NCBI RefSeq assembly: GCF_009712225.1
Contig: NZ_WASP01000003.1
Coordinates: forward strand, 333,852-397,851
Direction: 5' to 3'
DNA: 64,000 nucleotides
From: Desulfovibrio sp.
GTDB taxonomy: Bacteria; Desulfobacterota; Desulfovibrionia; Desulfovibrionales; Desulfovibrionaceae
The stretch's first letter is position 1, and each line of letters opens with the position of its first letter. Positions 22,102-34,653 of the stretch are shown piece by piece. A program made the position numbers and the translations under genes. A model generated the notes under the pieces. The model did no database searches, was not told the origin of the DNA, and saw only the letters and a program-made list of their open reading frames with translations.

Positions 22102-23670
22102 TTACAGAACCTTTTTCAGTTCAGCCACGATCATTTCGGTAACGGCATTGATGTCCAGCGTGCCGCCAGCATGGGCGGCAGTCTGGGGAGCCACCACGGC
22201 GTCATGGTTGGCACCATGGCAGCAGCAACCGGCAACCCCAGCAGAGGGCGGATAATGCGTGGCAGGAGCGGTTGAAACGCCGCAGGCAGCAGTTGCGTGG
22301 TGCGCGGGGGCAGCGCAGCAGCCGCACTGGGAGTTGAGGTCGTAAGCCACGCGACGCACGTTCATAAGGTTGAGGGGCGTAACGTTGTCAGAGGTGGCAC
22401 TGCCGCCCACTGCGCCGCAGCCCAGGGTAAAGGACGGGAAGAGCCCGGTGGAGATGCCCACAGCACCCTGGGTGGAGGGCGTGTTGACCAGCATGCGCGA
22501 AACGGGCTTTTTCAGACCGAATTCACGGATCACTTCTTCGTTGCGCGAATGAATGGCCATGGAGTGGCCCACGCCGCCGTTGTGCAGCAGGGCCGTGCAC
22601 AGTTCGCAGGCTTCGTGCCAGTCTTCAACCACATAGAAGCCCAGAAGCGCGGTGAGCTTTTCCTTGGAGAAAGGATACTTGGGTCCAACGCCCTTTTCGT
22701 CCGAAATGAGCAGACGGGTTCCCGCAGGCACGTCGATGCCAGACACATGGGCGATGCTGAGAGCGTCGCGTCCCACAATGGCGGGGTTCATGCTGCCGTT
22801 GCCGCGTTCCATGACGCGCTTGACCTTTTCGAGCTTTTCGCCGGTGAGGAAATAGCCGCCCTGGGCTTCCAGAGTGGCGCGAACCTTGTCGGCAATGCAG
22901 GATTCGGTGACGATGGACTGCTCGGAAGCGCAGATGGTACCATTGTCAAAGGTCTTGCTGCTCATGATCTTGCTTACGGCGTCTTCAATATCGGCGCTGC
23001 GTTCAATGAAGGCAGGCACGTTGCCCGCGCCAACGCCCAGGGCGGGGGTGCCGGAGCTGTATGCGGCCTTGACCATGCCGGGGCCGCCGGTGGCCAGAAT
23101 GAGGTCAGAAATCTTCATCAGTTCGTTGGTGCCTTCAATGGAGGGCATGCTGATGCTGCCGACCAGATCGGGCGAAACGTGGCAGCCACGCAGAGCGCCC
23201 TGAATGACCTCGACAGTCTTGGCAATGCAGTTGCGCGCGCTGGGGTGCGGCGTAAACACAATGGCGTTGCCAGACTTGAGCGCGATAAGCGACTTGTAGA
23301 TGACCGTGGAGGTGGGGTTGGTGGAAGGCACGATACCGGCAATCACGCCCACGGGCACGGCAATCTCAACCACCTTGGTGCTGGGGTTGGAATGCAGCAC
23401 GCCAATGGTTTTCATGTCCTTGATGCAGGCATAGACCTTTTCACTGGCAAGAAGATTCTTGATTTTCTTGTCCTGCGGGCGGCCAAAGCCTGTTTCTTCC
23501 ACCGCCATGTTGGCCAGAACTTCGGCCTGGGCGGCGGCAGCTTCGGCAACAGCCTTCACAACCTCGTCCACACGTTCCTGGCTGAGCTGCGCAAATTCCG
23601 GCTGGGCCTTGCGCGCCGCGCGAACCAGGGCGCGGGCTTCCTGAATGGAAAGTAAATCCTTATCAACCAT
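22102..23670 (-). CDS. cutF: CoA-acylating acetaldehyde dehydrogenase CutF
   Basis: This 522-residue enzyme oxidises acetaldehyde to acetyl-CoA with NAD+ and CoA. The catalytic cysteine C247 (FDNGTICASEQS) and oxyanion asparagine N118 (PSTNPTST) are intact. After the catalytic domain (about 1-450) comes a linker of about 50 residues rich in Cys, His and Ala. It contains CGCC and GCCCHGANH. A C-terminal amphipathic helix (DINAVTEMIVAELKKVL) follows, a typical encapsulation peptide. AAGGAG precedes the start. It is 3 bp after the extended BMC-H gene. Confidence 0.95.
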   Translation of the reverse strand: MVDKDLLSIQEARALVRAARKAQPEFAQLSQERVDEVVKAVAEAAAAQAEVLANMAVEETGFGRPQDKKIKNLLASEKVYACIKDMKTIGVLHSNPSTKVVEIAVPVGVIAGIVPSTNPTSTVIYKSLIALKSGNAIVFTPHPSARNCIAKTVEVIQGALRGCHVSPDLVGSISMPSIEGTNELMKISDLILATGGPGMVKAAYSSGTPALGVGAGNVPAFIERSADIEDAVSKIMSSKTFDNGTICASEQSIVTESCIADKVRATLEAQGGYFLTGEKLEKVKRVMERGNGSMNPAIVGRDALSIAHVSGIDVPAGTRLLISDEKGVGPKYPFSKEKLTALLGFYVVEDWHEACELCTALLHNGGVGHSMAIHSRNEEVIREFGLKKPVSRMLVNTPSTQGAVGISTGLFPSFTLGCGAVGGSATSDNVTPLNLMNVRRVAYDLNSQCGCCAAPAHHATAACGVSTAPATHYPPSAGVAGCCCHGANHDAVVAPQTAAHAGGTLDINAVTEMIVAELKKVL

Positions 23671-23673
23671 GTC

Positions 23674-24282
23674 TTACTCCTTTTCCTTCCGTGCCGCCCG
23701 GTCGATGGCGTCGATCAGCGTTTGCCGGTTGGCAGAGGCGACCTGTTCACGTGTAAGGTCAACCTTTGTTGCAACAGCAAGCTGACGAAGTTTGTTCATA
23801 CTCATGGTCTTGCATTTATCGCGGCTGAACCCGGCGGTTTCAGGGCCTGTCTGCCCTGCTTCCGCCGCCTTGATCTCTTCTGCCGTCGAGACCGTTGCCG
23901 CGGCCCTGGCCTTTTCTGAAGCCCTGGCCGGTTCTGCCGTAAATTTCTCTGCCTGCGCACCGCTCGCAGCGGCCTCAAGCACGGGTTCTTCCGCCGTCGG
24001 TTCCACCGGGCGAAGCAACAGTATCTGCTCAAGCCCGGCGTCAGGACGCGGAATGACATGACGCGACACGCACACCACGCCTTCTATGCGCTCAAGAGAA
24101 GCCCTGGCGGCATCCACAGCCGACTGCACGGCCGCCACTTCACCAGCAATGGTGATGGTTACCAGACCGCCCGAGGCAAGCGACTTTTCGAGCAGGCGCA
24201 CGTCGGCTGCCTTGAGCATGGCATCTGCCGCTTCGATGGCCCCGATCAGCCCCTTGGTTTCTATAAGACCCAGTGCAAGCAT
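23674..24282 (-). CDS. BMC-H shell protein with C-terminal extension
   Basis: Residues 1-90 form a BMC-H domain (ALGLIETKGLIGAIEAADAM and HVIPRPDAGLEQIL). A disordered Ala/Glu-rich linker follows (about 95-155), then a small helical module (about 158-198, MNKLRQLAVATKVDLTREQ). Similar extensions occur in PduK-type and glycyl-radical compartment shell proteins; the module resembles SAP/Rho-N-type helices. Total 202 residues. It probably forms hexamers with tails projecting to one face. GAGGAGG precedes the start. Confidence 0.9.
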   Translation of the reverse strand: MLALGLIETKGLIGAIEAADAMLKAADVRLLEKSLASGGLVTITIAGEVAAVQSAVDAARASLERIEGVVCVSRHVIPRPDAGLEQILLLRPVEPTAEEPVLEAAASGAQAEKFTAEPARASEKARAAATVSTAEEIKAAEAGQTGPETAGFSRDKCKTMSMNKLRQLAVATKVDLTREQVASANRQTLIDAIDRAARKEKE

Positions 24283-24311: not shown

Positions 24312-25244
24312 TTAGTGTCTGACCACTTTGACAGCCAGGCCGTAGCCTTTCAGAATATCTTCCATGCGCCGCAAGTCGTCGTCTTCAAGAACAGGGTTGC
24401 CCGTGATGGCATATTCCTTGTCCAGCTGGGCATATTTGCTCACACCCATCTTGTGGTATGGAAGCAGATCAATGCCCTTGAAATTTTTTCTTTCGCCATG
24501 GCCAGCCAGGAATCTTCCCACGGCATGCATTTCGGCATCATCATCGTTGTACCCCTTCAGTACGGGCATGCGGATGTGCACGTTGCGACCGTTTTCAAGC
24601 AGCCACTGCAGGTTGGACAGAATAAGCTCGTTGCGCACACCGGTCAGTTCGTAGTGCTTTTCCGGATCCATGTGCTTGATGTCGAACAAAAACAGGTCAA
24701 CCACTTCGGCCAGGGCGCTGACCACCTCGGGCTTGGCGTAGCCAGAGGTTTCCATGGCGGTATTGATGCCCTTGTGCCTGCAGGCCAGCAGCAGGTTTGC
24801 CACCGCTTCGTGCTGGGTCATGGGCTCGCCGCCGCCAACTGTCACACCACCGCCGGAGTTCTCGTAGAACATCCAGTCCTGCTCCACGGCTTCCAGCAGT
24901 TCAGAAATACCCTTGCGTTCACCGGCAATGGCCAGGGCTGCCTGCGGACAGGCGTGCACGCACTTGCCGCAGTTGACGCATTCCTTTGACCTGTCGACCA
25001 CGTGTTGCGATCCGGCGTTGGTCATGCCGTGTATGCCCGCCGGGCACACTGGCACGCAGCTGCCGCAGTGCACACACAGATCTTTTTTGAACAACACTTC
25101 GAAGCGGCGGCTCTGGCTCTCGGGGTTGGAACACCACTTGCAGCGCAGCGGGCAACCCTTGAAGAACACCAGGGTGCGTATGCCCGGGCCGTCATACATG
25201 TTGTATTTCTGTATGTTGAAAACAATGGCCTTTCTTTCAATCAC
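24312..25244 (-). CDS. cutD: CutD, glycyl-radical activating enzyme of CutC
   Basis: This 310-residue radical SAM protein installs the glycyl radical on CutC. The SAM cluster cysteines are C31, C35 and C38 (CPLRCKWC). Two ferredoxin-type clusters follow (CVHCGSCVPVC and CVNCGKCVHAC, about 57-105), as in other activases of this type. GGGEPM lies further on. The start is a GTG with AGGA upstream. It is separated from cutC by 92 bases containing a hairpin. Confidence 0.96.
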   Translation of the reverse strand: MIERKAIVFNIQKYNMYDGPGIRTLVFFKGCPLRCKWCSNPESQSRRFEVLFKKDLCVHCGSCVPVCPAGIHGMTNAGSQHVVDRSKECVNCGKCVHACPQAALAIAGERKGISELLEAVEQDWMFYENSGGGVTVGGGEPMTQHEAVANLLLACRHKGINTAMETSGYAKPEVVSALAEVVDLFLFDIKHMDPEKHYELTGVRNELILSNLQWLLENGRNVHIRMPVLKGYNDDDAEMHAVGRFLAGHGERKNFKGIDLLPYHKMGVSKYAQLDKEYAITGNPVLEDDDLRRMEDILKGYGLAVKVVRH

Positions 25245-25336: not shown

Positions 25337-27889
25337 CTAGAAGTTGTGCAGCACGGTGCGGCTGATGATTTCGTCCTGCACGTCCTTGCACAGCTCCACA
25401 AAAAAGGCGCTGTAACCGGCCACGCGCACCACGAGGTCGCGGTAATCCTTGGGGTTGCTCTGGGCTTCCAGCATGGTCTTGTTGTCCAGGTAGTTGAACT
25501 GCATTTCGCCGTTACCCAGAATGCTGGCAGTGCGGATAAGGGTAATGAGGCCCTGCTCGCCTTCGGGCGTATCCAGCAGGCCGGGCAGCAGCTTGAAGTT
25601 GTGCACCATGCCAATGTTCATGTTGTCATTGGACATCTTGGACACACTCTTGATGATGGCCGTGGGTCCCTTGTAGTCCGCGCCCTGGGTGGGGCTGATG
25701 CCATCCGAAAGGGGCAGCCAGGCCTTGCGGCCATTGGCCGAAGCGCCCAGCAGCTGACCAAAGGGCGTGTTGTTCGAGATGGACAGCGTACCGTGGCTCA
25801 GCACGGAATACAGGGTGCGGTACTTGCGGTGCTCGCGTTCGGTAAAGGCAATCAGCTCGGCGGCGATGCTGTCGGCGTAGTCGTCGTCGTTGCCGTACTT
25901 GGGCGCTGCGAGGCAGTCGGCCAGAATGGCGTCGTAGCCTTCAAAGTTGGCTTTGAGAGCCTCGTTGATCTGGTGCAGGGTGTACTTTTTGTCGTCGAAC
26001 ACCAGCTTCTTGATGGCAGCCATGGAGTCGGTGTAGGTGGCAAGACCGCTCCAGACCACGCCGGGGCCAAAGTTATACATGGCACCGCCAGCGGCCACGT
26101 CGAGGCCCTTTTCCATGCAGCCTTCGTACATGATGGACATGAGCGGCTTGGGAGCCAGATCGCGCTGCACACGCTGCGAAATGACCGTGGCAACGCTCGA
26201 CCACTTGGTGATGTACTTGATCTGTTCCTTTACAGCGGCGTCAAACTTTTCGTAGGTGTCGTACTGGTCAAGTTCGCCCAGATCGGGGCACACCTGCTTG
26301 CCGTACCACTGGGGCACGCCGTGGTTGAGCACAAGCTCGATGCAGATGGGCCACTGGGTGTAGGCGGTGGAGGTCCACTGGTACAGGCGGCCAGCCTTTT
26401 GCGGCTCAACGCAACCCATAAGGCAGTAGTCACGCGCGTCTTCAATGCTCACGCCCTTGGCAAGCATCATCTTGATGTGGGTGTCGTCAAAGTGCACGGC
26501 GGGAAAGCCCATACCCGAGCGGATGACCGACACGATCTTTCTGAGATATTCCTGCGGCGAGGAATTGTGCACGCGTGTGGCAAGCGAGGGCTGGTAGATT
26601 CGCACGTGGCGCACCGCATCCATCAGCAGATAGGTGAGCTGGTTGGTGGCGTCGCGGCCTTCGCGGCTCACGCCGCCCACGCACATGTTCACGAAGGGCT
26701 GATAGCCAGCAAAAAACTTGGAGCTGCCCTCACTGGTGAGCCACATCATTTCAGACATTTTGATGAGCATGCAGCCCGCAAGATCAAAGGCCTCGTACTC
26801 GGTCATGCGGCCAGCTTCAAGGTCGGCCTTGAAGAGCGGGTACATGTACTGGTCCACACGGCCAATGGACATGCCGGTCTGGTTTTCTTCCACAACCAGC
26901 AGCGATTCCACGGTCCACACAGCCTGAATGGCTTCCCAGAACGTGCTGGGCGCGTGGGCGGGAACGCGGGCGTTGACTTCAGAAATCTTGAGTAGCTCGG
27001 CCTTGCGCTTGGGGTCAGATTCCCTGGCAGCCAGCTGTGCCGCATATTCAGACATGCGGCGGGCGTAACACATGACGCCCTCGGTGGTTTCGATCACCGA
27101 CTTGTAGAAGTAAATCTTGTCGATATCTTCAGGGCGGTCATAGTCGAGGTGTTCCAGATGGGCCTGGGCTTCGTGCTGGATGTCCAGCATGCCCTTCTTC
27201 ATAAGGATAACGTCGTAGCCGGGGTTGGAGTCGCCGCCGCCGTTGAGGGCGTGGTACGAGCAGTCGGAAACATACGACTCGCCCGAAAGTTCCCACAAAC
27301 CGGCTTCGCGGTACTGGGCCTCGCAGTACTCGTCTACAGACTTGCCCGCCCAGTAGGGAAAAATCTCTTCCTGAAGCACTTTTTTGTCTTCATCGGCGAG
27401 ATAGAAGGGGTCCTGGGCGCGTGTGCCGATGGAATCCAGCTCGTCCCTGAGCCAACGCCACGAAATATCAGGAGAAAAAGCGCCAGCGCGCGGCGCGCCG
27501 TTGGGTGCGCCCACGATGAGTTCGTGGTCCTGAATGACCAAGGGGGCAGTTTCGCAGCAGTAGCGAAACGCCTTGGCGCGCAGCATGATGCGCGGCATGC
27601 CGGGATTTTCACTGTCGATCTTGGTGATGGCCTTGGCGCGGTGAATGGTGATGCGCGGGACCTGCTTAAGATAGTTTTCTTTCAGCAGCAGGTGACGCTG
27701 GGTGGGGCCTTCCGGCACGCTGGCACCATCGTGATGCGCTACGGCGACGGCAGGCGCAGCCCCGGCTGGGGCGTGAGCGGCTGCGCCAATGGTGGCATTG
27801 GCAAAAATCCTGCGCAGTTCTTCACGTTCCTGCGGGGAGAGACTTTTGGTAACTTCAGCTATTTTGCTTGTAAAATCATGAAGATCCAC
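25337..27889 (-). CDS. cutC: CutC choline trimethylamine-lyase
   Basis: This 850-residue glycyl radical enzyme cleaves choline to trimethylamine and acetaldehyde. The thiyl cysteine C493 and general base E495 lie in MGCVEP; the radical glycine G825 lies in RVAGYSAF. Choline-pocket residues are also present: Y212 and D220 ([10 protein letters not shown]), F399 and Y510. All sit at +4 relative to what I recall of the D. alaskensis enzyme, which argues for true CutC over other glycyl radical diol or lyase enzymes. The N-terminus has a short helix ([16 protein letters not shown]) and an Ala-rich linker, a likely encapsulation peptide. The start is GTG with GGAGG upstream. Confidence 0.98.
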
Positions 27890-27936: not shown

Positions 27937-29421
27937 TCAGTGGGGCAGCTGCAATGAGGCCAGGGCTTCACGCAGCACGCGCCGCAGCACGTCAAATGGT
28001 TCATCTGCCCGCATGGCGCCGTCTGCGGACGCTGTTTTTGCCGGGCCAAAATCTGCCAGGTGCGCGATGCCGCGCACGCCGTAGCCAATTTTTCTGCGAT
28101 AAATGAGATTCAGGGGCGAAATATTTTCAGATGTGATGCCGTAGCCAGCTATGCCGCTGCCCTGGGTCATGGCGGGGGTGAGGTTTGTGGTCAGGCCCAT
28201 GCCGCCAAAAGACGCGCCCGTGTTGACCAGCAGGCGGGCAACGGGCTTTTTAAGGGCAAACTGGCGGATAACCTCATCGTCTGTGCTGTGAATGGTCAGG
28301 GTTTGCGCGTGGCGCTCCTGCAGCAGCAGCTCAAGACATTTCTCGCAGGCGTGCTTCCAGTCTGGCTCAACGTAGTAGCCGAGCACAGGTGAAAGCAGTT
28401 CACGTATATAAGGATCGTGACCGGTAACGTATTTGCGCTCGGCCACAAGAACCCTAGTTCCAGCTGGGATGGCAAAGCCCGCTTTTTCGGCCAGCGCTGC
28501 GGCACTCTGCCCCACCATGTCGCGGCGGCGTCTGCCATCGCGGTGGAACAGCACATTGCAAATGGCGCTGGCCTCTGCCTCTGTCATGAAATACGCGCCG
28601 TTGTCCTGAAAGGCGCGGCGCACCTGCCGCTCAACACAGCCGTCCACAATTACGCACTGCTCGGCGGAAGGGGCCAGACCGTTGTCAAAGGCCTTGCTGG
28701 CGACAATGTCGCCTGCTGCTGCGGCAATGTTGGCGCTGCGCTCGATAAAGACCGGGCCGTTGCCCGTACCGCCGTAGATGAGGGGCTTGCCGCTGGCTCG
28801 CGCGGCTTCAAACATGCCAAGCACGCCCGTAACCATGACCAGGGCCACACCGGGGTGTTGCATGAGCTCCTGCGTACCGCTTTTGGCCACGATATCGAGG
28901 TACGAAACGGCCCCTTCGGGCAGACCGTGCGCCCTGCCAGCAGCTACCATCACATCAAGGGCATGGCGCATGCTGTCGATGGCGCGGGGATGCAGGGAAA
29001 AAATGATCGCGTTGCCAGATTTGACGGCCAGCAGGGTTTTGTACATGGCAGTTGAAACAGGGCTTGTGACGGGGCAAAGCGCCACAATAACGCCCAGCGG
29101 CACACCCACCTCACGCACAGAGCCGTGATTCAGGTCGCCATCAAGCGGCCCCACGCAGCGCACGCCGCGCAGGCTGTTGCGCACCTGCCTGGCAACAAAA
29201 AGGTTTTTGACCATTTTGTCCTGCCACACGCCACAGTCACTTTCTTCGTGGCACATGACGGCCAGCGACTGGGCGTGGGCTTCCACCGCTTCGGCCATGG
29301 CCTCCACAATGGAATCCAGTGCTTCCTGCGGCAATACGGCCAGCTTTTTTTGGGCTTCTACCGCATTCTCAGCCAGGATACGCGCCTGCTGGATGGAAAT
29401 GAGATCCTTGTCGCCGATCAT
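27937..29421 (-). CDS. cutB: CutB-type aldehyde dehydrogenase homologue lacking catalytic Cys
   Basis: This 494-residue protein aligns end to end with CutF, beginning [12 protein letters not shown]. The catalytic loop reads [12 protein letters not shown] where CutF has FDNGTICASEQS, so the catalytic Cys position is Pro251 (codon at 28669-28671). The oxyanion Asn is Ser120 (VTSPVST versus STNPTST). It is therefore probably not an acylating dehydrogenase. A C-terminal helix ([16 protein letters not shown]) resembles an encapsulation peptide. The start at 29421 was preferred over 29427 because GGGAG then has a normal spacing and the N-terminus matches CutF. A scaffold or regulatory role is possible. 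Confidence 0.88.
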
Positions 29422-29445
29422 CCGCATCTCCCAAAAGTGCTCTGG

Positions 29446-30042
29446 CTAGGCCAGAGAATACCGCCGCACAATCTTGACCAGATGCCGGTGGGGCGTGGGG
29501 ATGACGCACGAGCTGTACACATCGGCGCCCATGTTTTTCACGGCCTTCACACCAGCTTCAACAGCCGACTTGCAGGCGGCCACATCGCCCTGCACAAGAG
29601 CCGAGCAGTAGCCTGAAGCCACGTTTTCGTAACCGATCAGTTCCACATCAGCGGTCTTGATCATGGCGTCGGCGGCTTCCATCAGGTAGACGATGCCAAA
29701 GGTTTCGATCATGCCAAGCGAGCGCAGGCCGGGGTCGTCGTCAGGCACAGCGTCAACCACATGGGCCATGGCAATGCCACCCACACCGCGCACGGGCCGG
29801 GGCATGACATTTTGCGAGGTGAGTTTGCCGATCGAGGCGGCGGCAACCGCGCCAGCAGCCACAGATGCCTGCACGGCGGCCACGTCGCCCTTTACCATTA
29901 CGGTAACAAGGGTCGAGCCCACGTTTTCATAGGCTATCAGCTCCACATCGGCGGCCTTGAGCATGTTGTCCGCACCGTAAATGGCGGGAACCATGCCCAG
30001 CGTTTCAATGAGGCCAAGGGCCTCTTCTCCTTCATACAGCAT
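29446..30042 (-). CDS. Tandem-domain BMC-T shell protein, first gene of the operon
   Basis: This 198-residue protein has two canonical-order BMC domains (about 8-85 and 105-190) joined by an acidic linker, so it should form pseudohexameric trimers. The first domain begins ALGLIETLGMVPAIYGAD and the second SLGMIETFGIVYLMEAAD. No pore cysteine matching PduT is present. GGAG precedes the ATG. It is promoter-proximal, 62 bases from the predicted transcription start. Confidence 0.92.
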   Translation of the reverse strand: MLYEGEEALGLIETLGMVPAIYGADNMLKAADVELIAYENVGSTLVTVMVKGDVAAVQASVAAGAVAAASIGKLTSQNVMPRPVRGVGGIAMAHVVDAVPDDDPGLRSLGMIETFGIVYLMEAADAMIKTADVELIGYENVASGYCSALVQGDVAACKSAVEAGVKAVKNMGADVYSSCVIPTPHRHLVKIVRRYSLA

Positions 30043-30110
30043 ACGCGCTCCGTGAAATACAAACGTTCGGGAAAGCCGTTCGGGTCGATGAAAAATTGAA
30101 CCTTATGCCA

Positions 30111-30142
30111 GTTGTAACCCTTCCCCTAGGGGGGAAGGTCAA
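30111..30142 (-). promoter_or_regulatory. MerR-family promoter and operator of the cut operon
   Basis: On the minus strand TTGACC (30137-30142) is followed by an elongated spacer and TACAAC (30111-30116, 20-base spacer) or TTACAA (30112-30117, 19-base spacer). The spacer holds a perfect 8-bp inverted repeat, CCTTCCCC (30119-30126) and GGGGAAGG (30131-30138). A 19-20 base spacer filled by a dyad is the hallmark of MerR-activated promoters, and this one closely resembles CueR-type sites. It lies 69-100 bases before the first operon gene. Confidence 0.8.
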
Positions 30143-30246
30143 GGGCTTTTCCAACTTTTTGTTCAAATAATTTTTTTCCTCGTTCAAAATTTCCCAAGTC
30201 AGTATTTTCCGTTTGGGTAATCACTCAATTTTGAAAACTGGTTTCA

Positions 30247-30280
30247 TTGATTATTTCTGAAAATGACACGTATATATAAT
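30247..30280 (+). promoter_or_regulatory. AT-rich segment with TATAAT in the divergent control region
   Basis: A TATATATAAT tract (30271-30280) contains a perfect -10 hexamer, but the nearest TTGATT (30247-30252) is 22 bases away. A small dyad TGAAA-ACTGG-TTTCA precedes it. It may be an activator-dependent promoter or a melting region; support is weak. Confidence 0.3.
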
Positions 30281-30364
30281 GATAACTATTTACACTAGTG
30301 CGATGAAATGGAAGCGCGGACAAAAAAAAGTTACTGTCCGGGAGAACATTCTTTGCGAATGGCA

Positions 30365-30395
30365 TTGACCTTCCAGTGCGCCGCAACCTTAGGCT
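30365..30395 (+). promoter_or_regulatory. Second MerR-like promoter, facing the transporter
   Basis: TTGACC (30365-30370) and TAGGCT (30390-30395) are separated by 19 bases. The first ten bases, TTGACCTTCC, are identical to the left part of the cut-operon promoter, but the right half of the dyad is poor. It lies 75 bases before the transporter gene, so the same regulator may control both directions. Confidence 0.5.
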
Positions 30396-30470
30396 TTTAC
30401 TAAGCAGGCGAGGCGGGCTTTTGCTGGGGCAAAGGACCTGCCGCACAATCACTCAGAGAAGGAGCATGTC

Positions 30471-31568
30471 ATGGAGCATGTGGCTGAACCCAGCGCAACG
30501 GCCGGAAAGGGCGGAATCGCCCCGGCCCTGGCCGCAAAAATGAAACTTGCCACCGATTTCAGAAGGCGCGGCATGTTTGTCGCGACCATGTCGGGTGTTG
30601 CTTACGGCAACTATACGGCATTCATGACCCTGGCCATGACCATGGGGGTATGGTCTGTATGGTATGGGGCGGATTCTGGCCTTTCGGAATTTTCCACACT
30701 GTTTTTACTGGGCGCGCTGGGCGCGGCCACAACAGATGCGTGCAGCGCCGTATGGGCACTGCTTATAGCCACTTTCAAGGGCAAGCTGGGTGACGTGTTT
30801 CGCAGCGCTGCCAGCAAGCCAGGCGTGATCCTGATTGCGGCGGCGGTTATTGGCGGCCCTCTCGCCAGCACCTGCTACGTGCTTGGCCTGCAAAGCGCCG
30901 GGTCCATCATCGTGCCCATCAGCGCCCTGTGCCCGGCCATCGGCTCCATTCTGAGCCGCATCCTGTTCAAGCAGCCGCTTACTTCCCGTACACTTACGGG
31001 CATATTCATCTGCTTTTTGGCCAGCGCCATGATCGGCAGCACCGGTCTGGCAGAAAACGCGCCGCCGAACCTGTTTCTCGGTCTGGCCTTTGGTTTTCTG
31101 GCCGCTTTTGGCTGGGGGCTTGAAGGCTGCGTTGGCGGCTACGCCACTTCCATGATTGACCCCGAGATCGGCATCACCATCCGCCAGGTGACCTCGGCTT
31201 TCACCAACCTTATGGTGCTGGTGCCGCTGTTTGCCTACATCGGCAATGCCGACGCCTTTGCCATGATTACCACCGCCTTTACCGATACGGTCGCCATGCC
31301 CTGGTTTGCCGTGGCTGGTTTTGCGGCCTACTTCGCCTTTATGCTGTGGTATAAGGGCAACGCCATGTGCGGCACGGCGCTGGGCATGTCGTGCAACGGC
31401 GCGTTCTCGTTCTGGGGTCCGTTCTTCTGCTGGCTTGTGCTTGGACTCTGGTTCGGCATCGACGGCTACGCACTTGCGCCCATCGTGTGGGTTGCAGCTG
31501 TGGTCATGGTTGCGGGTATCTTCATAATTGCTGTCAACCCGCTAGAATTATTCAAGAAGAAAGGATAA
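30471..31568 (+). CDS. DMT-superfamily (EamA-like) membrane transporter
   Basis: This 365-residue protein has about ten hydrophobic helices in two repeats, typical of the drug/metabolite transporter superfamily. An unusual N-terminal cytoplasmic stretch of about 35 residues precedes the first helix. It is divergent from the choline operon across a shared control region, so choline import or trimethylamine/ethanol export is the natural guess; nothing in the sequence fixes substrate or direction. GAAGGAG precedes the ATG at 30471. No BCCT, SMR or ABC choline importer is visible in the window. Confidence 0.8.
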   Translation: MEHVAEPSATAGKGGIAPALAAKMKLATDFRRRGMFVATMSGVAYGNYTAFMTLAMTMGVWSVWYGADSGLSEFSTLFLLGALGAATTDACSAVWALLIATFKGKLGDVFRSAASKPGVILIAAAVIGGPLASTCYVLGLQSAGSIIVPISALCPAIGSILSRILFKQPLTSRTLTGIFICFLASAMIGSTGLAENAPPNLFLGLAFGFLAAFGWGLEGCVGGYATSMIDPEIGITIRQVTSAFTNLMVLVPLFAYIGNADAFAMITTAFTDTVAMPWFAVAGFAAYFAFMLWYKGNAMCGTALGMSCNGAFSFWGPFFCWLVLGLWFGIDGYALAPIVWVAAVVMVAGIFIIAVNPLELFKKKG

Positions 31569-31572
31569 CACC

Positions 31573-31839
31573 ATGAAGCCGTTGAACTATGCCATCCTTA
31601 AATATATGACGACTGTGAAGGACGCCTGCCCCGAAGACGTGATTGACGCGCTGGCTTCGCAGTACTGCACCTTTCGGGCGTTCAACAAGGCTGATGTGCT
31701 CACGGCGCTGCTGACCGCCGAGGCCAACGGCCTGCTGGAAGAATCGCGCTTTGACCTTGATGCCGATGGCGAACTGCGCCTGTTCTTTCGCGCCCATGCC
31801 GAAGGAATGGAAACCATCAACCGTTATATTCCCGGCTAG
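31573..31839 (+). CDS. Uncharacterised 88-residue protein coupled to the transporter
   Basis: I do not recognise this small acidic protein. It is predicted helical, with VIDALASQYCTFRAFNKADVLTALL-like spacing suggesting a winged-helix-like or small helical bundle, and an acidic beta-like tail (DLDADGELRLFF). AAAGGA lies in the end of the transporter gene and only 4 bp separate the two, so they are translated together. A role as a partner or regulator of the transporter is inference. Confidence 0.75.
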   Translation: MKPLNYAILKYMTTVKDACPEDVIDALASQYCTFRAFNKADVLTALLTAEANGLLEESRFDLDADGELRLFFRAHAEGMETINRYIPG

Positions 31840-32156
31840 CTGAACAGAGGGCAGCGGCAACTGCGCAGTGAAGGCCGCGCATTGCCTTGCCCCTCAGGTA
31901 TTACCCCTGTGGGCTGGCGGCGTACCGGGCGAAAAAATCTTCGCCCGGTGCCCGCCGGGTTAACGCGACATCAGGTACAGCCTGAAAAATCAGGCGGGGC
32001 AGCCCCGCCACAGATGAGATACGATTCTTTTCGTATAGTGCGGAGCAGCCTCACCCGCCCGGTCTGAAGGCCGGAACACGCGCAGCGCAGACCTTGTGCA
32101 CAGCGCCCCGGGCCAACTCCGTCTTTTATCCCCCCCAAAAGAATCCGGGTGCGGCC
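31840..32156 (+). other. Non-coding stretch with hairpins between the transporter unit and the MerR gene
   Basis: No gene is seen. It contains a perfect 10-bp hairpin (31924-31933 with 31940-31949), a GCCTGA-AAAA-TCAGGC hairpin (31980-31995), an adjoining GGCGGGGC/GCCCCGCC stem (about 31993-32009), and ATACGA/TCGTAT (32019-32024 with 32031-32036). The first is the likely end of the transporter transcript although no T-run follows. The last could be an autoregulatory site for the MerR gene. Confidence 0.5.
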
Positions 32157-33059
32157 ATGAAAACACAAGGCTATACAATCAGCCAGATGAGCGATATTTC
32201 CAAGATATCAAAAAAAGCCCTGCGCTTTTATGACGATCTCGGGCTTATCTCTTCAAAGCGGCACGGAGCCAACAACTACCGTTACTATACACACGAAGAT
32301 CTGCTTTCTGTTCCCCCACTCAAATACTACAAGCAGATGGGCTTTAACCTTGGGGAAATACGCGCGGCGTTTGAGGTGGGCAGCAACACCTCGCTTTCGG
32401 CCCTGCGCAAAATGTTCATGGAAAAAATCCAGCTGCTGCAGGACGAAGAAAAAATTCTGCATCTTCGGCTTACCTCTGTGCGCGACTGGCTTGAACTGCT
32501 GCACGAGGCCGAGATGGTGCTGGAAAACAATCTGCAGAGCGTTTCCGTAAAGTACATTGCGCCAGAGCAGTTGCTGTTTCAAAAGCAGACCTTCACGTCA
32601 GACATCAAATCTGCCATCATCAACATTGATTTTACCAATCATGTTGAGTCGTTGGGCAACAACATCACCGGGCCGGTCATCATCTATTTTTCGTCCACCA
32701 GCGACAGGCTGAACAGCTCCGAGCAGCAGATTCAGATGCTGCAACGCACCATCTTTCCCTGCCCGGAAGAACAGACCCACGCATTTGGTGGCTTTCTGGC
32801 GGCAAGCTGCTACCACATCGGCTCGCACGAAACCATCAACCAGACATACAAAAAGATTCAGCGCTGGTGCTCCGCAAACAACTATGTCTATGACGCGGGA
32901 GCATACGAACGCTACATCACCGATTTCTGGACAACAAACAACGAAGAGCTGTTTGTTACCGAAATCATTGTGCGGGTCAGCAGGCCGGGTATGGTTGTGC
33001 ACCGCCAGATAGCGCGTGACGATGATGACATGGTTCTGTGCAGGGACGATGACGACTAG
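32157..33059 (+). CDS. BmrR-like MerR-family transcriptional regulator
   Basis: This 300-residue protein has an N-terminal MerR winged helix (YTISQMSDISKISKKALRFY, then YRYYTHEDLL, about 1-75) and a dimerisation coiled coil (about 80-120). A C-terminal domain (about 150-290) with YHIGSHETINQTYKKIQRW and ITDFWTTNNEELFVTEI resembles the GyrI-like effector domain of BmrR. That domain binds bulky or cationic ligands in an aromatic/acidic pocket, so choline or trimethylamine are plausible effectors. It is the best candidate to bind the dyads at 30111-30142. The ATG at 32157 fits the MerR N-terminus, although no strong ribosome site is seen. Confidence 0.85.
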   Translation: MKTQGYTISQMSDISKISKKALRFYDDLGLISSKRHGANNYRYYTHEDLLSVPPLKYYKQMGFNLGEIRAAFEVGSNTSLSALRKMFMEKIQLLQDEEKILHLRLTSVRDWLELLHEAEMVLENNLQSVSVKYIAPEQLLFQKQTFTSDIKSAIINIDFTNHVESLGNNITGPVIIYFSSTSDRLNSSEQQIQMLQRTIFPCPEEQTHAFGGFLAASCYHIGSHETINQTYKKIQRWCSANNYVYDAGAYERYITDFWTTNNEELFVTEIIVRVSRPGMVVHRQIARDDDDMVLCRDDDD

Positions 33060-33261: not shown

Positions 33262-34653
33262 ATGAACACATGCAATACATGGCAGAAGGAAATTCAGGAT
33301 GCCCTGAATCTTCTGGCCAGCAACCGTGCTGAAGACAGCGCCGCCAAGCTGCGCACTGTGTTGCGCAGCTGCGATAACGACCCACACTGCTGTGCTCTGG
33401 CGCTCGACGGCCTTGGCCGTGCCCTGCTTGCGCTCAAGCGTCCCCTTGAAGCATGCCAGACCATGGAACAAGCTCTTGCCGCGGCCCGAGGCGCTTTTGG
33501 CAACAACTCCATTTTGACGCTGGGAATATTACAGAATCTGGCCCATGTGCAGCTGGAATCGGGCAAGGCAGGGCAAAGCGAAATTCTTGGGCGCGAGGCA
33601 GCCAGCCTGTGCGAAGCTGTTTACGGTGCCAATTCTCCCCATGTGGCCGAAGCACTGCTGCATCTTTCTGCAGCCTGTTACCGCCAGCAAAAGCTCGCTG
33701 ATGCGCAGCACTGCCTGCAACGGGCCGTGCAGATATGGCAGGCGCAGCCAGAGCCATCGCCCCGGCTGGGAACCTGCCTCAACAATCTTGGCCGTATTGA
33801 AGAAGAGCGAGGCAACCATGCCCAGGGCATTGCCCTGCACCGCAAGGCTGTAGTCCTGAGGCGCAGTCTTTTGGGCGAATGCCATGAAGACACGGCATTT
33901 TCGCTGGGCAACCTTGGTGTGGCCCTGGCTGCAAGCGGCCAGTGGCACGAGGCGGCAGACGTTCTTGAATCTGCGCTGGCTTGCTACGCTCGCCTTGGCA
34001 GACACAAAAGCCCCGAGGCCGATGGCTACAGAAAAAACCTGGTCGTCTGCCGCAAGGCATTGGGACAGCAATCCCCCTTGCGCACTGGCAAAACCACGCA
34101 TAATGCGCCCAGCCGCGCCACGCTGTTGCACGAAATCATTGAAAAAGAACTGGTCATGTTTCTCGCCACGCCCAATCAGGGCGGCACAGCCAGCTGCCAG
34201 CAGAATCCGCAGGGCTTCCGCATCATGCGCCGCATGAGCCTGACGCCCTTGAGCGATGCCACGCTGGCACACTACCTGGATGACCTGCACCGTGCAGAAG
34301 CTCAGGGCCGCAATTTCATGATCGAAAAATACGCCCGCATGGACAGCCTCATCCCGCCCTTGCAGGCCAGCCCGCTGGTAGACGAAATTGTGCGCGCCGA
34401 AACCGCCTTCATCCAGACGGCCTCGGCACAGTACCCGCATGTGATCCGCCACGGCGGCAACAGCGCGTTTCAGAATTACCTGCGCTGCGAGGCAGAAACC
34501 TACTCGCCCGCCACGCTTGAATCTTACTCCGCCGATCTGCGCCGCGCCCGGCAGCAGGGGCGCAACCCGGCCATTGAGCGCTTTCGCTGTCTGGCCGACC
34601 TGCTGGGCAAACCCAGCCTTGAGGCCTTTGAGCAGGAAGCCCGCGCATTGTAA
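33262..34653 (+). CDS. TPR protein with DUF4125-like C-terminal domain
   Basis: This 463-residue protein has an N-terminal array of about six tetratricopeptide repeats of the kinesin-light-chain type (about 10-270), for example LGTCLNNLGRIEEERGNH and TAFSLGNLGVALAASGQW. The C-terminal 180 residues contain EIIEKELVMFL, GGTASCQQNPQGFRIMRR, LHRAEAQGRNFMIEKYARM and a terminal near-repeat LRRARQQGRNPAIERF. These match my memory of DUF4125, a family of unknown function. No signal peptide, so cytoplasmic. It follows the MerR gene after 200 bp on the same strand. Confidence 0.75.
   Translation: MNTCNTWQKEIQDALNLLASNRAEDSAAKLRTVLRSCDNDPHCCALALDGLGRALLALKRPLEACQTMEQALAAARGAFGNNSILTLGILQNLAHVQLESGKAGQSEILGREAASLCEAVYGANSPHVAEALLHLSAACYRQQKLADAQHCLQRAVQIWQAQPEPSPRLGTCLNNLGRIEEERGNHAQGIALHRKAVVLRRSLLGECHEDTAFSLGNLGVALAASGQWHEAADVLESALACYARLGRHKSPEADGYRKNLVVCRKALGQQSPLRTGKTTHNAPSRATLLHEIIEKELVMFLATPNQGGTASCQQNPQGFRIMRRMSLTPLSDATLAHYLDDLHRAEAQGRNFMIEKYARMDSLIPPLQASPLVDEIVRAETAFIQTASAQYPHVIRHGGNSAFQNYLRCEAETYSPATLESYSADLRRARQQGRNPAIERFRCLADLLGKPSLEAFEQEARAL

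Follow-up and report, generated by a model that had tools for sequence, protein, structure and literature searches.

The element at 30111-30142 of the window (the whole 64-kb stretch of DNA that we analyzed) is very probably the promoter of a choline-utilization (cut) operon, worked at a dyad in its spacer by the regulator encoded at 32157-33059. We propose that it acts as a sigma-70-type promoter, overlong in its spacer by 2-3 bp, for the choline-to-trimethylamine microcompartment operon, and that a dimer of the MerR/BmrR-type regulator would bind the spacer dyad. Without ligand the regulator would hold the promoter off. Once a cationic choline-like ligand had entered the GyrI-like domain, the spacer would be kinked and untwisted, bringing both boxes within reach of RNA polymerase. 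A second target of this regulator is probably the divergent promoter at 30365-30395, which would drive a putative transporter, an 88-aa PadR-like protein and the regulator itself. The direct basis of this explanation is the geometry of the site, its uniqueness, its conservation, the co-occurrence, the predicted fold of the regulator and a conserved glutamate; from these we infer binding, activation, the transcription start and the ligand.

The plus strand of the window reads GTTGTA (30111-30116), CCTTCCCC (30119-30126), TAGG (30127-30130), GGGGAAGG (30131-30138) and GGTCAA (30137-30142). The features of the promoter region are:

30111..30142, minus strand: elongated MerR-type promoter of the cut operon, with the -35 TTGACC at 30142-30137, a 20-bp spacer at 30136-30117 and the -10 TACAAC at 30116-30111 (by reading; unique in the genome, core conserved in relatives)
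30119..30138, no strand assigned: predicted operator, a perfect 8-bp dyad CCTTCCCC-N4-GGGGAAGG running from the -35 end into the spacer (by reading)
30143..30182, minus strand: A-rich stretch directly 5' of the -35, a possible UP element (from the sequence; seen by eye in many of 22 aligned promoters, conservation weak)
30043..30104, minus strand: predicted 5' leader, with a start expected near 30104, GGAG at 30051-30048 before the ATG at 30042 and no stable RNA fold (sequence and folding)

Read along the minus strand the dyad is CCTTCCCC-CCTA-GGGGAAGG, and its first two bases are common to the -35 (the outer 2 bp overlap). If the -10 is taken as TTACAA the spacing becomes 19 bp, and both spacings fit the window sequence alone. 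The preliminary description of this DNA had reported a TTGACC and a TACAAC (or TTACAA) separated by 20 (or 19) bases around a perfect 8-bp dyad with a 4-base centre; the coordinates and both spacer readings proved exact. The -10, TACAAC, lacks the final T of TAnnnT. The promoter is directed along the minus strand towards a BMC gene with its ATG at 30042, 68 bp before this first shell gene of the cutCD cluster. MerR promoters have spacers of 19-20 bp according to the available parts of PMC8113463 and PMC7722741, and here both a -35/-10 gap of 19-20 bp and a palindromic operator inside the spacer were found. A simple scan for sigma-70-like promoters with a 16-18-bp spacer gave none on the minus strand in 29950-32300, and in the 600 bp preceding the cut operon of the window no sigma-54 promoter reached the threshold chosen here. 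When 22 promoters were aligned (window included), strong conservation was confined to the 32-bp core, with no second conserved operator seen in the 40 bp upstream or the 58 bp downstream of it. As a separate matter, an RNA element in the leader was considered and rejected, the fold of 30110-30040 being matched or beaten by 200 of 200 shuffles.

The operon that this promoter faces contains the following genes:

29446..30042, minus strand: tandem BMC shell protein of 198 aa, first gene of the operon (PF00936, 1.2e-49, two stretches)
27937..29427, minus strand: aldehyde dehydrogenase-like protein (PF00171; TIGR02518 477.6 bits, below the cut-off of 620.1)
25337..27889, minus strand: CutC, choline trimethylamine-lyase (TIGR04394 1649.7 bits, cut-off 1050)
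24312..25244, minus strand: CutD, CutC activase (TIGR04395 545.3 bits, cut-off 360)
23674..24282, minus strand: BMC shell protein (PF00936 2.9e-25)
22102..23670, minus strand: acetaldehyde dehydrogenase, acetylating (TIGR02518 660.5 bits, cut-off 620.1)

CutC, CutD and BMC shell genes thus stand together, as in a cut (GRM1-type) choline microcompartment cluster. Choline induction of the cut genes in Desulfovibrio is reported second-hand in the available text of PMC5026066.

The site is rare. Searching the 64-kb window for TTGACNNTCCCCNNNNGGGGANNGNNTA with up to three mismatches gave one match, with no mismatch (shuffle mean 0.01; a match in 1 of 100 shuffles). CCTTCCCCN4GGGGAAGG is found at one place in the 3,668,018-bp genome and its reversed-pattern control at none, while the longer pattern TTGACCTTCCCCN4GGGGAAGG with up to three mismatches has the window site as its sole place in the genome (an exact match on its own strand, 3 mismatches on the opposite one), the control also giving one place. 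Over the 199 whole genomes described below, a longer pattern was found at 27 places against 7 for the reversed-pattern control. Cut or transporter promoters account for 19 of the 27, and four more (G069, G080, G133 and G091:C1:1525113) are away from any recognised target, which is consistent with the 7 control places. A nearest-plasmid search returned one weak 128-bp match.

In order to follow regulator and operon through the Desulfovibrionaceae we used a sample of 199 genomes of the family, counting a regulator homologue at E <= 1e-40 and CutC above 1590 bits (our own threshold). The regulator homologue was present in 38 of the 199 and CutC in 42, with both in 37 (p = 1.3e-33, uncorrected). 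A single genome has the regulator without cutC (G070) and five have cutC without the regulator (G073, G094, G120, G176 and G187). The family profile NF053782.1 at E <= 1e-60 finds the same 38 of 199 genomes, 17 of the 199 exceeding its curated cut-off. At the curated cut-off of 1050, CutC is found in 44 of 199; the extra two (G003 and G152) have no regulator homologue and, in the scan of the 199 whole genomes, no match of the long pattern used there.

We then scanned the cut loci of all 42 genomes with TTGACYTTCCCCN4GGGGNAGG. Using this motif, which was derived from these same genomes so that motif and test set overlap within the family, the site appeared upstream of the first shell gene in 37 of 37 genomes with the regulator (34 with up to three mismatches, G103 and G172 with four, G184 with five). 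It was found in none of the five cutC loci without the regulator (15-18 kb each) at up to four mismatches, nor at five with TTGAC exact. The comparison of 37/37 against 0/5 gives a Fisher p of 1.2e-6, uncorrected for shared ancestry. Among the 37 cut promoters, window included, the best fit to a -10 (15-22 bp tried) was at 20 bp in 30 and at 19 bp in 7. We also used a motif-free score for a dyad in a long spacer, covering 400 bp upstream only and set against 60 shuffles. It missed five of the regulator genomes (G057, G079, G108, G142 and G151), where about 450-470 bp separate the site from the first BMC match; the motif scan found these. In 25 of the other 32 regulator genomes, 0 of 60 shuffles reached the score, and in the remaining 7 it was reached by 1-7 of 60 (worst G129, 7/60). 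For the five cutC genomes without the regulator, 11 to 60 of 60 shuffles reached it.

Because the scan motif came from the family's own genomes, a test across phyla weighs more. Scanning genome contigs with the regulator alignment, we took the best 80 of 204 loci, which belong to Desulfobacterota, Clostridium and other Clostridia, Photobacterium and a Cetobacterium. These best 80 of 204 loci hold 69 sites at up to three mismatches in 1,026,692 bases, and none in the reversed sequence. All except two of the 69 are in the right direction and no more than 900 bp upstream of a gene of the cut cluster (66 sites) or of the regulator gene (1 site); those before cut genes include sites in other Desulfobacterota, in Clostridium and in Photobacterium. 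With spacers of 16-21 bp tried, the best -10 fit was at 19-21 in the 67 near sites and at 19 in the other two, one of which (L182) precedes an alkaline phosphatase gene. Several Clostridium loci read TTGACT-20-TATAAT, which to judge by its letters is a near-consensus promoter spoilt only by the spacer, as a MerR-type switch would need. Outside the Desulfovibrionaceae, going by the labels of the best 80 of 204 loci, 35 of 59 regulator loci have the site and 24 have none at up to three mismatches. The figures are 35 of 50 (absent in 15) for the loci with a CutC, BMC1 or transporter match, and 30 of 41 for those with CutC. No site was found even at five mismatches in 8 of those 15 site-less loci. 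The 15 of 50 mean that the promoter-regulator module is common in the regulator family but not universal, or that the operator has drifted. The 21 Desulfovibrionaceae loci among the best 80 of 204, with the site in 6 within the flanks covered, overlap the 199-genome set and are not independent. The preliminary description had taken the element for a MerR-type promoter with the 32157-33059 regulator as its partner, and this is supported both by the family comparison and by the recurrence across phyla. In the window itself the pairing rests on position and co-occurrence.

Some sites were seen in other surroundings. An operator-promoter precedes an alkaline phosphatase gene at L106 5011, L105 5092, L222 2293 and L182 7999 (PF00245 in L106 and L182, recognised by eye in L105 and L222), followed by a YibE/F-type gene (PF07907 in L182), and in L182 this site is right beside the regulator. 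Perhaps the phosphatase releases choline from phosphocholine. Around the motif-like sites L221 2579 (G021) and L223 2347 (G096) no cut gene was recognised by eye.

On the other side of the cut promoter a divergent operon begins, with a promoter of its own that the preliminary description did not contain:

30365..30395, plus strand: another elongated promoter, TTGACC-19-TAGGCT, whose dyad is degenerate, directed at the transporter-regulator operon (from the sequence; position and form shared with L140, the dyads of L077-L080 being clearer)
30471..31568, plus strand: predicted hydrophobic protein of 365 aa, candidate choline transporter (9 hydropathy peaks; gene kept near the regulator in many loci)
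31573..31839, plus strand: 88-aa protein with a PadR-like winged-helix fold in the model, conserved in the operon (pLDDT 96.5; best Foldseek matches PadR-type)
32157..33059, plus strand: MerR/BmrR-type regulator of 300 aa, with a MerR HTH and a GyrI-like effector domain (PF13411, PF06445; NF053782.1 383.7 bits; fold)

The dyad of this second site keeps 4 of 7 half-site pairs, and the same weak form appears in L140, whose regulator is 91% identical to that of the window. Of 33 fetched loci that carry the transporter gene, 26 have a site facing it and 7 have none. The best spacer of this site was 19 bp in 19 of the 26, 21 bp in 6 and 22 bp in 1, the six 21-bp cases reading TATAAAT, for which 19 bp is also possible. 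On the transporter side, Clostridia and other phyla mostly have a 20-bp spacer (22 of 28, among the best 80 of 204 loci), and a 19/20 difference between the two promoters is therefore a feature of the Desulfovibrionaceae. The recurrence of a second site before the transporter-regulator operon suggests that the regulator probably controls its own operon, perhaps weakly in this window. The putative transporter had no Pfam or NCBIfam match at E 0.001. For the 88-aa protein of the window there was no Pfam match over the cut-off and no NCBIfam match, and its best Foldseek match was 6abt (E 2.7e-4). Of 43 aligned members, 24 match PF03551 weakly (E 0.0016 at best), the window's own protein not among them. 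The protein is 31-92% identical in 42 aligned relatives and is encoded between the transporter and regulator genes in several phyla. Downstream of the regulator, at 33262-34653 on the plus strand, there is a TPR and DUF4125 protein, with homologues near the regulator in several loci of the same genus and, weakly (28-34% identity), just upstream of the regulator in some Clostridia loci.

The regulator has a MerR-type winged HTH (PF13411 48.2 bits, cut-off 21.6; PF00376 44 bits, cut-off 28.2) and a GyrI-like effector domain (PF06445 48.2 bits, cut-off 26). Its match to NF053782.1 is full-length (profile 5-277 of 278) and the gene lies inside the cut cluster, the score of 383.7 bits (383.9 in the genome search) being under the curated equivalog cut-off of 450. 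This profile matched the regulator of the window, and likewise each of the 34 sequences in alignment A1. The CueR profile TIGR02044 gave 43.6 bits, under its cut-off of 147.4. The closest named relatives, among the best 80 of 204 loci, were from Deltaproteobacteria (91%), Desulfovibrio sp. MES5 (77%) and a D. desulfuricans MAG (74%). An AlphaFold2 model built on 48 sequences (pLDDT 87.3) found by Foldseek, among its best solved-structure matches, EcmrR, BmrR on DNA and BmrR with acetylcholine. Against BmrR crystal structures the model aligned over 262-266 residues (Z 15.1-16.1, rmsd 3.4-3.6), and against 3q5s, BmrR with acetylcholine, over 263 residues (Z 15.3, rmsd 3.5; VIA-align). Glutamate E251 is invariant in 48 of 48 sequences. 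In HMMER alignments, with positions counted along, the EcmrR residue opposite it is E243, in a segment that is significant (30.7 bits), and the BmrR residue is E253, in a segment that is not (0.9 bits). According to the available text of PMC8113463, E185 and E243 of EcmrR dictate its preference for cationic compounds. By this alignment E251 would be the glutamate of a cation-binding pocket, like EcmrR E243 and BmrR E253; a choline-like cation would then be the ligand, and distortion of the spacer the mechanism.

A different member of the MerR family might instead use the dyad as its operator, be it a CueR/HmrR-like metal sensor, a further BmrR-like protein or a paralogue on contig C6; the adjacent regulator would then not be the partner of the dyad. 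The half-site CCTTCC/GGAAGG of the window dyad is indeed that of CueR, whose signal is given as ACCTTCCC-5-TGGAAGGT in the available part of PMC1526738 and was also read in the E. coli copA promoter, and with identical half-sites the binder cannot be told from the sequence alone. PF13411 matches at seven places in the genome, window regulator included; by eye, two of them are Cys-rich MerR-type proteins of small size encoded on the same contig, and one is a longer BmrR-like protein. The C6 paralogue, a second NF053782-type regulator (L071 9744-10586, minus strand), is 63% identical to that of the window and could bind the same dyad; it is 82.7-83.7% identical to the regulators beside cutC in three genomes of the genus (G068, G146 and G169). 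However, in the 18 kb fetched around it there is no site at up to five mismatches and no cut gene. The site, moreover, tracks the NF053782-type regulator in the family (37/37 against 0/5, in a comparison based on the regulator and CutC) and recurs beside this type of regulator across phyla. We therefore regard the intervention of another MerR protein as improbable.

We give even less probability to control of the cut promoter mainly by the 88-aa protein (31573-31839), whether it represses or co-regulates, with the MerR protein acting only on its own operon. The modelled PadR-like fold of the 88-aa protein and its conservation with transporter and regulator across phyla would speak for such a role, but the conserved core has the spacing of a MerR promoter and the 22 aligned promoters offer no second conserved operator within the flanks given above. 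Least probable of all, and very unlikely in our view, is an unrelated promoter with the dyad nearby as a chance inverted repeat or as an RNA element. The -10 is imperfect, and 29950-32300 has 6 terminator-like matches against a shuffle mean of 2.9. On the other hand, the dyad is unique in the genome, with its position, sequence and spacing conserved; it is located between the -35 and the -10, outside the leader, and the leader itself folds worse than its shuffles. Control of the cut promoter by the 32157-33059 regulator at the spacer dyad is by far the most probable reading.

In G146 and G169 (L072 7729-11819, L074 7232-11319) an orthologous transporter-88 aa-regulator operon is found opposite a gene for an iron alcohol dehydrogenase, which has an elongated promoter to itself, and cutC is elsewhere, with the other regulator paralogue. 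From this arrangement it seems that, within the genus, targets were exchanged between the two copies of the regulator. Three of the five cutC genomes without the MerR regulator have a PAS and sigma-54 activator with a Fis-type HTH about 4 kb or less from the cut genes (L100 13442-14905, L102 10721-12259, L104 6923-8395), which suggests a regulator swap. G073 has a perfect TGGCAC-N5-TTGC some 500 bp upstream of its first shell gene.

Bacterial choline cleavage is a main source of trimethylamine in the gut, and the switching of the cut operon is little described in the literature searched. With a defined operator, a regulator and a predicted ligand-contacting residue, the switch is directly testable. 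For D. alaskensis G20 there is a collection of mutants (PMC4215793). The motif TTGACYTTCCCC-N4-GGGG-N-AGG before TA can be used for finding choline regulons in genomes and metagenomes. If our explanation is true, a catabolic microcompartment is added to the targets of spacer-remodelling MerR activators. A wider reading, which we put forward tentatively as a possibility, is that of a choline-sensing MerR/EcmrR-type activator dedicated to a catabolic organelle, with choline or another small quaternary ammonium compound bound via E251 and an aromatic pocket. It would work a two-promoter switch (with a spacer of mostly 20 bp on the shell-enzyme side and, in Desulfovibrionaceae, mostly 19 bp on the transporter-regulator side) from Desulfovibrio to Clostridium and Photobacterium. 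The 88-aa PadR-like protein would be a second, undescribed part, and the regulon would reach alkaline phosphatase in some lineages.

Regarding earlier work, no MerR protein tied to cutC was apparent in the available text of the literature searched on choline/cut regulators and MerR promoters, and the available parts of PMC4215793, PMC6620236, PMC4207490, PMC8217296, PMC6325248, PMC12977544 and PMC5026066 name no MerR choline regulator. PMC11585892 and PMC10710832, which came up in these searches, were discarded, given that in the available text 'Merrill' is an author in the former and 'transcriptional activator' stands in a reference only in the latter. We found no description of the operator, the two-promoter layout or the cross-phylum reach in the literature searched, without claiming their absence from print. 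The NCBIfam entry NF053782.1, 'choline utilization transcriptional activator' (model ChlnTransRegdde3219), in the form consulted, gives no operator or mechanism. The preliminary description had suggested that a MerR/BmrR switch would be a distinct control logic for trimethylamine formation. This is only partly new, as NF053782.1 already names a choline activator family. Other cut clusters can use other regulators, such as the two-component pair of Clostridium ljungdahlii (available part of PMC12016505).

Several known systems can be set beside the one described here. BmrR of Bacillus subtilis controls a multidrug pump, not a catabolic organelle. It is like the window regulator in its MerR HTH, coiled coil and GyrI-like domain, in the full-length fold match and in having a glutamate at E253, and its complex with acetylcholine has been solved, but the identity is about 16-17%. 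The spacer of Pbmr is 19 bp in the available text of PMC7722741, against 20 bp in the window promoter. EcmrR of Escherichia coli is the best Foldseek match over the whole chain (E 1.6e-13), with its E243 aligned to E251, although its domains are set differently (rmsd 14.9), the identity is about 16% and its target and ligands are other ones. The CueR/HmrR copA promoters share the operator TTGACCTTCCCC...GGAAGG in an elongated spacer; CueR differs in its 19-bp spacer, 5-bp centre and short metal-sensing protein, whereas in the window there are a GyrI-like domain and a 4-bp centre. The GRM1 cluster of C. ljungdahlii is choline-induced and comes with a histidine kinase and a response regulator, its authors having predicted sigma-54 promoters (available part of PMC12016505); it is like the window in being a choline GRM1 cluster and unlike it in the two-component regulator pair. 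The system of the window is of a kind already known, a MerR-activated elongated promoter with a regulator of a family that NCBIfam has named for choline use.
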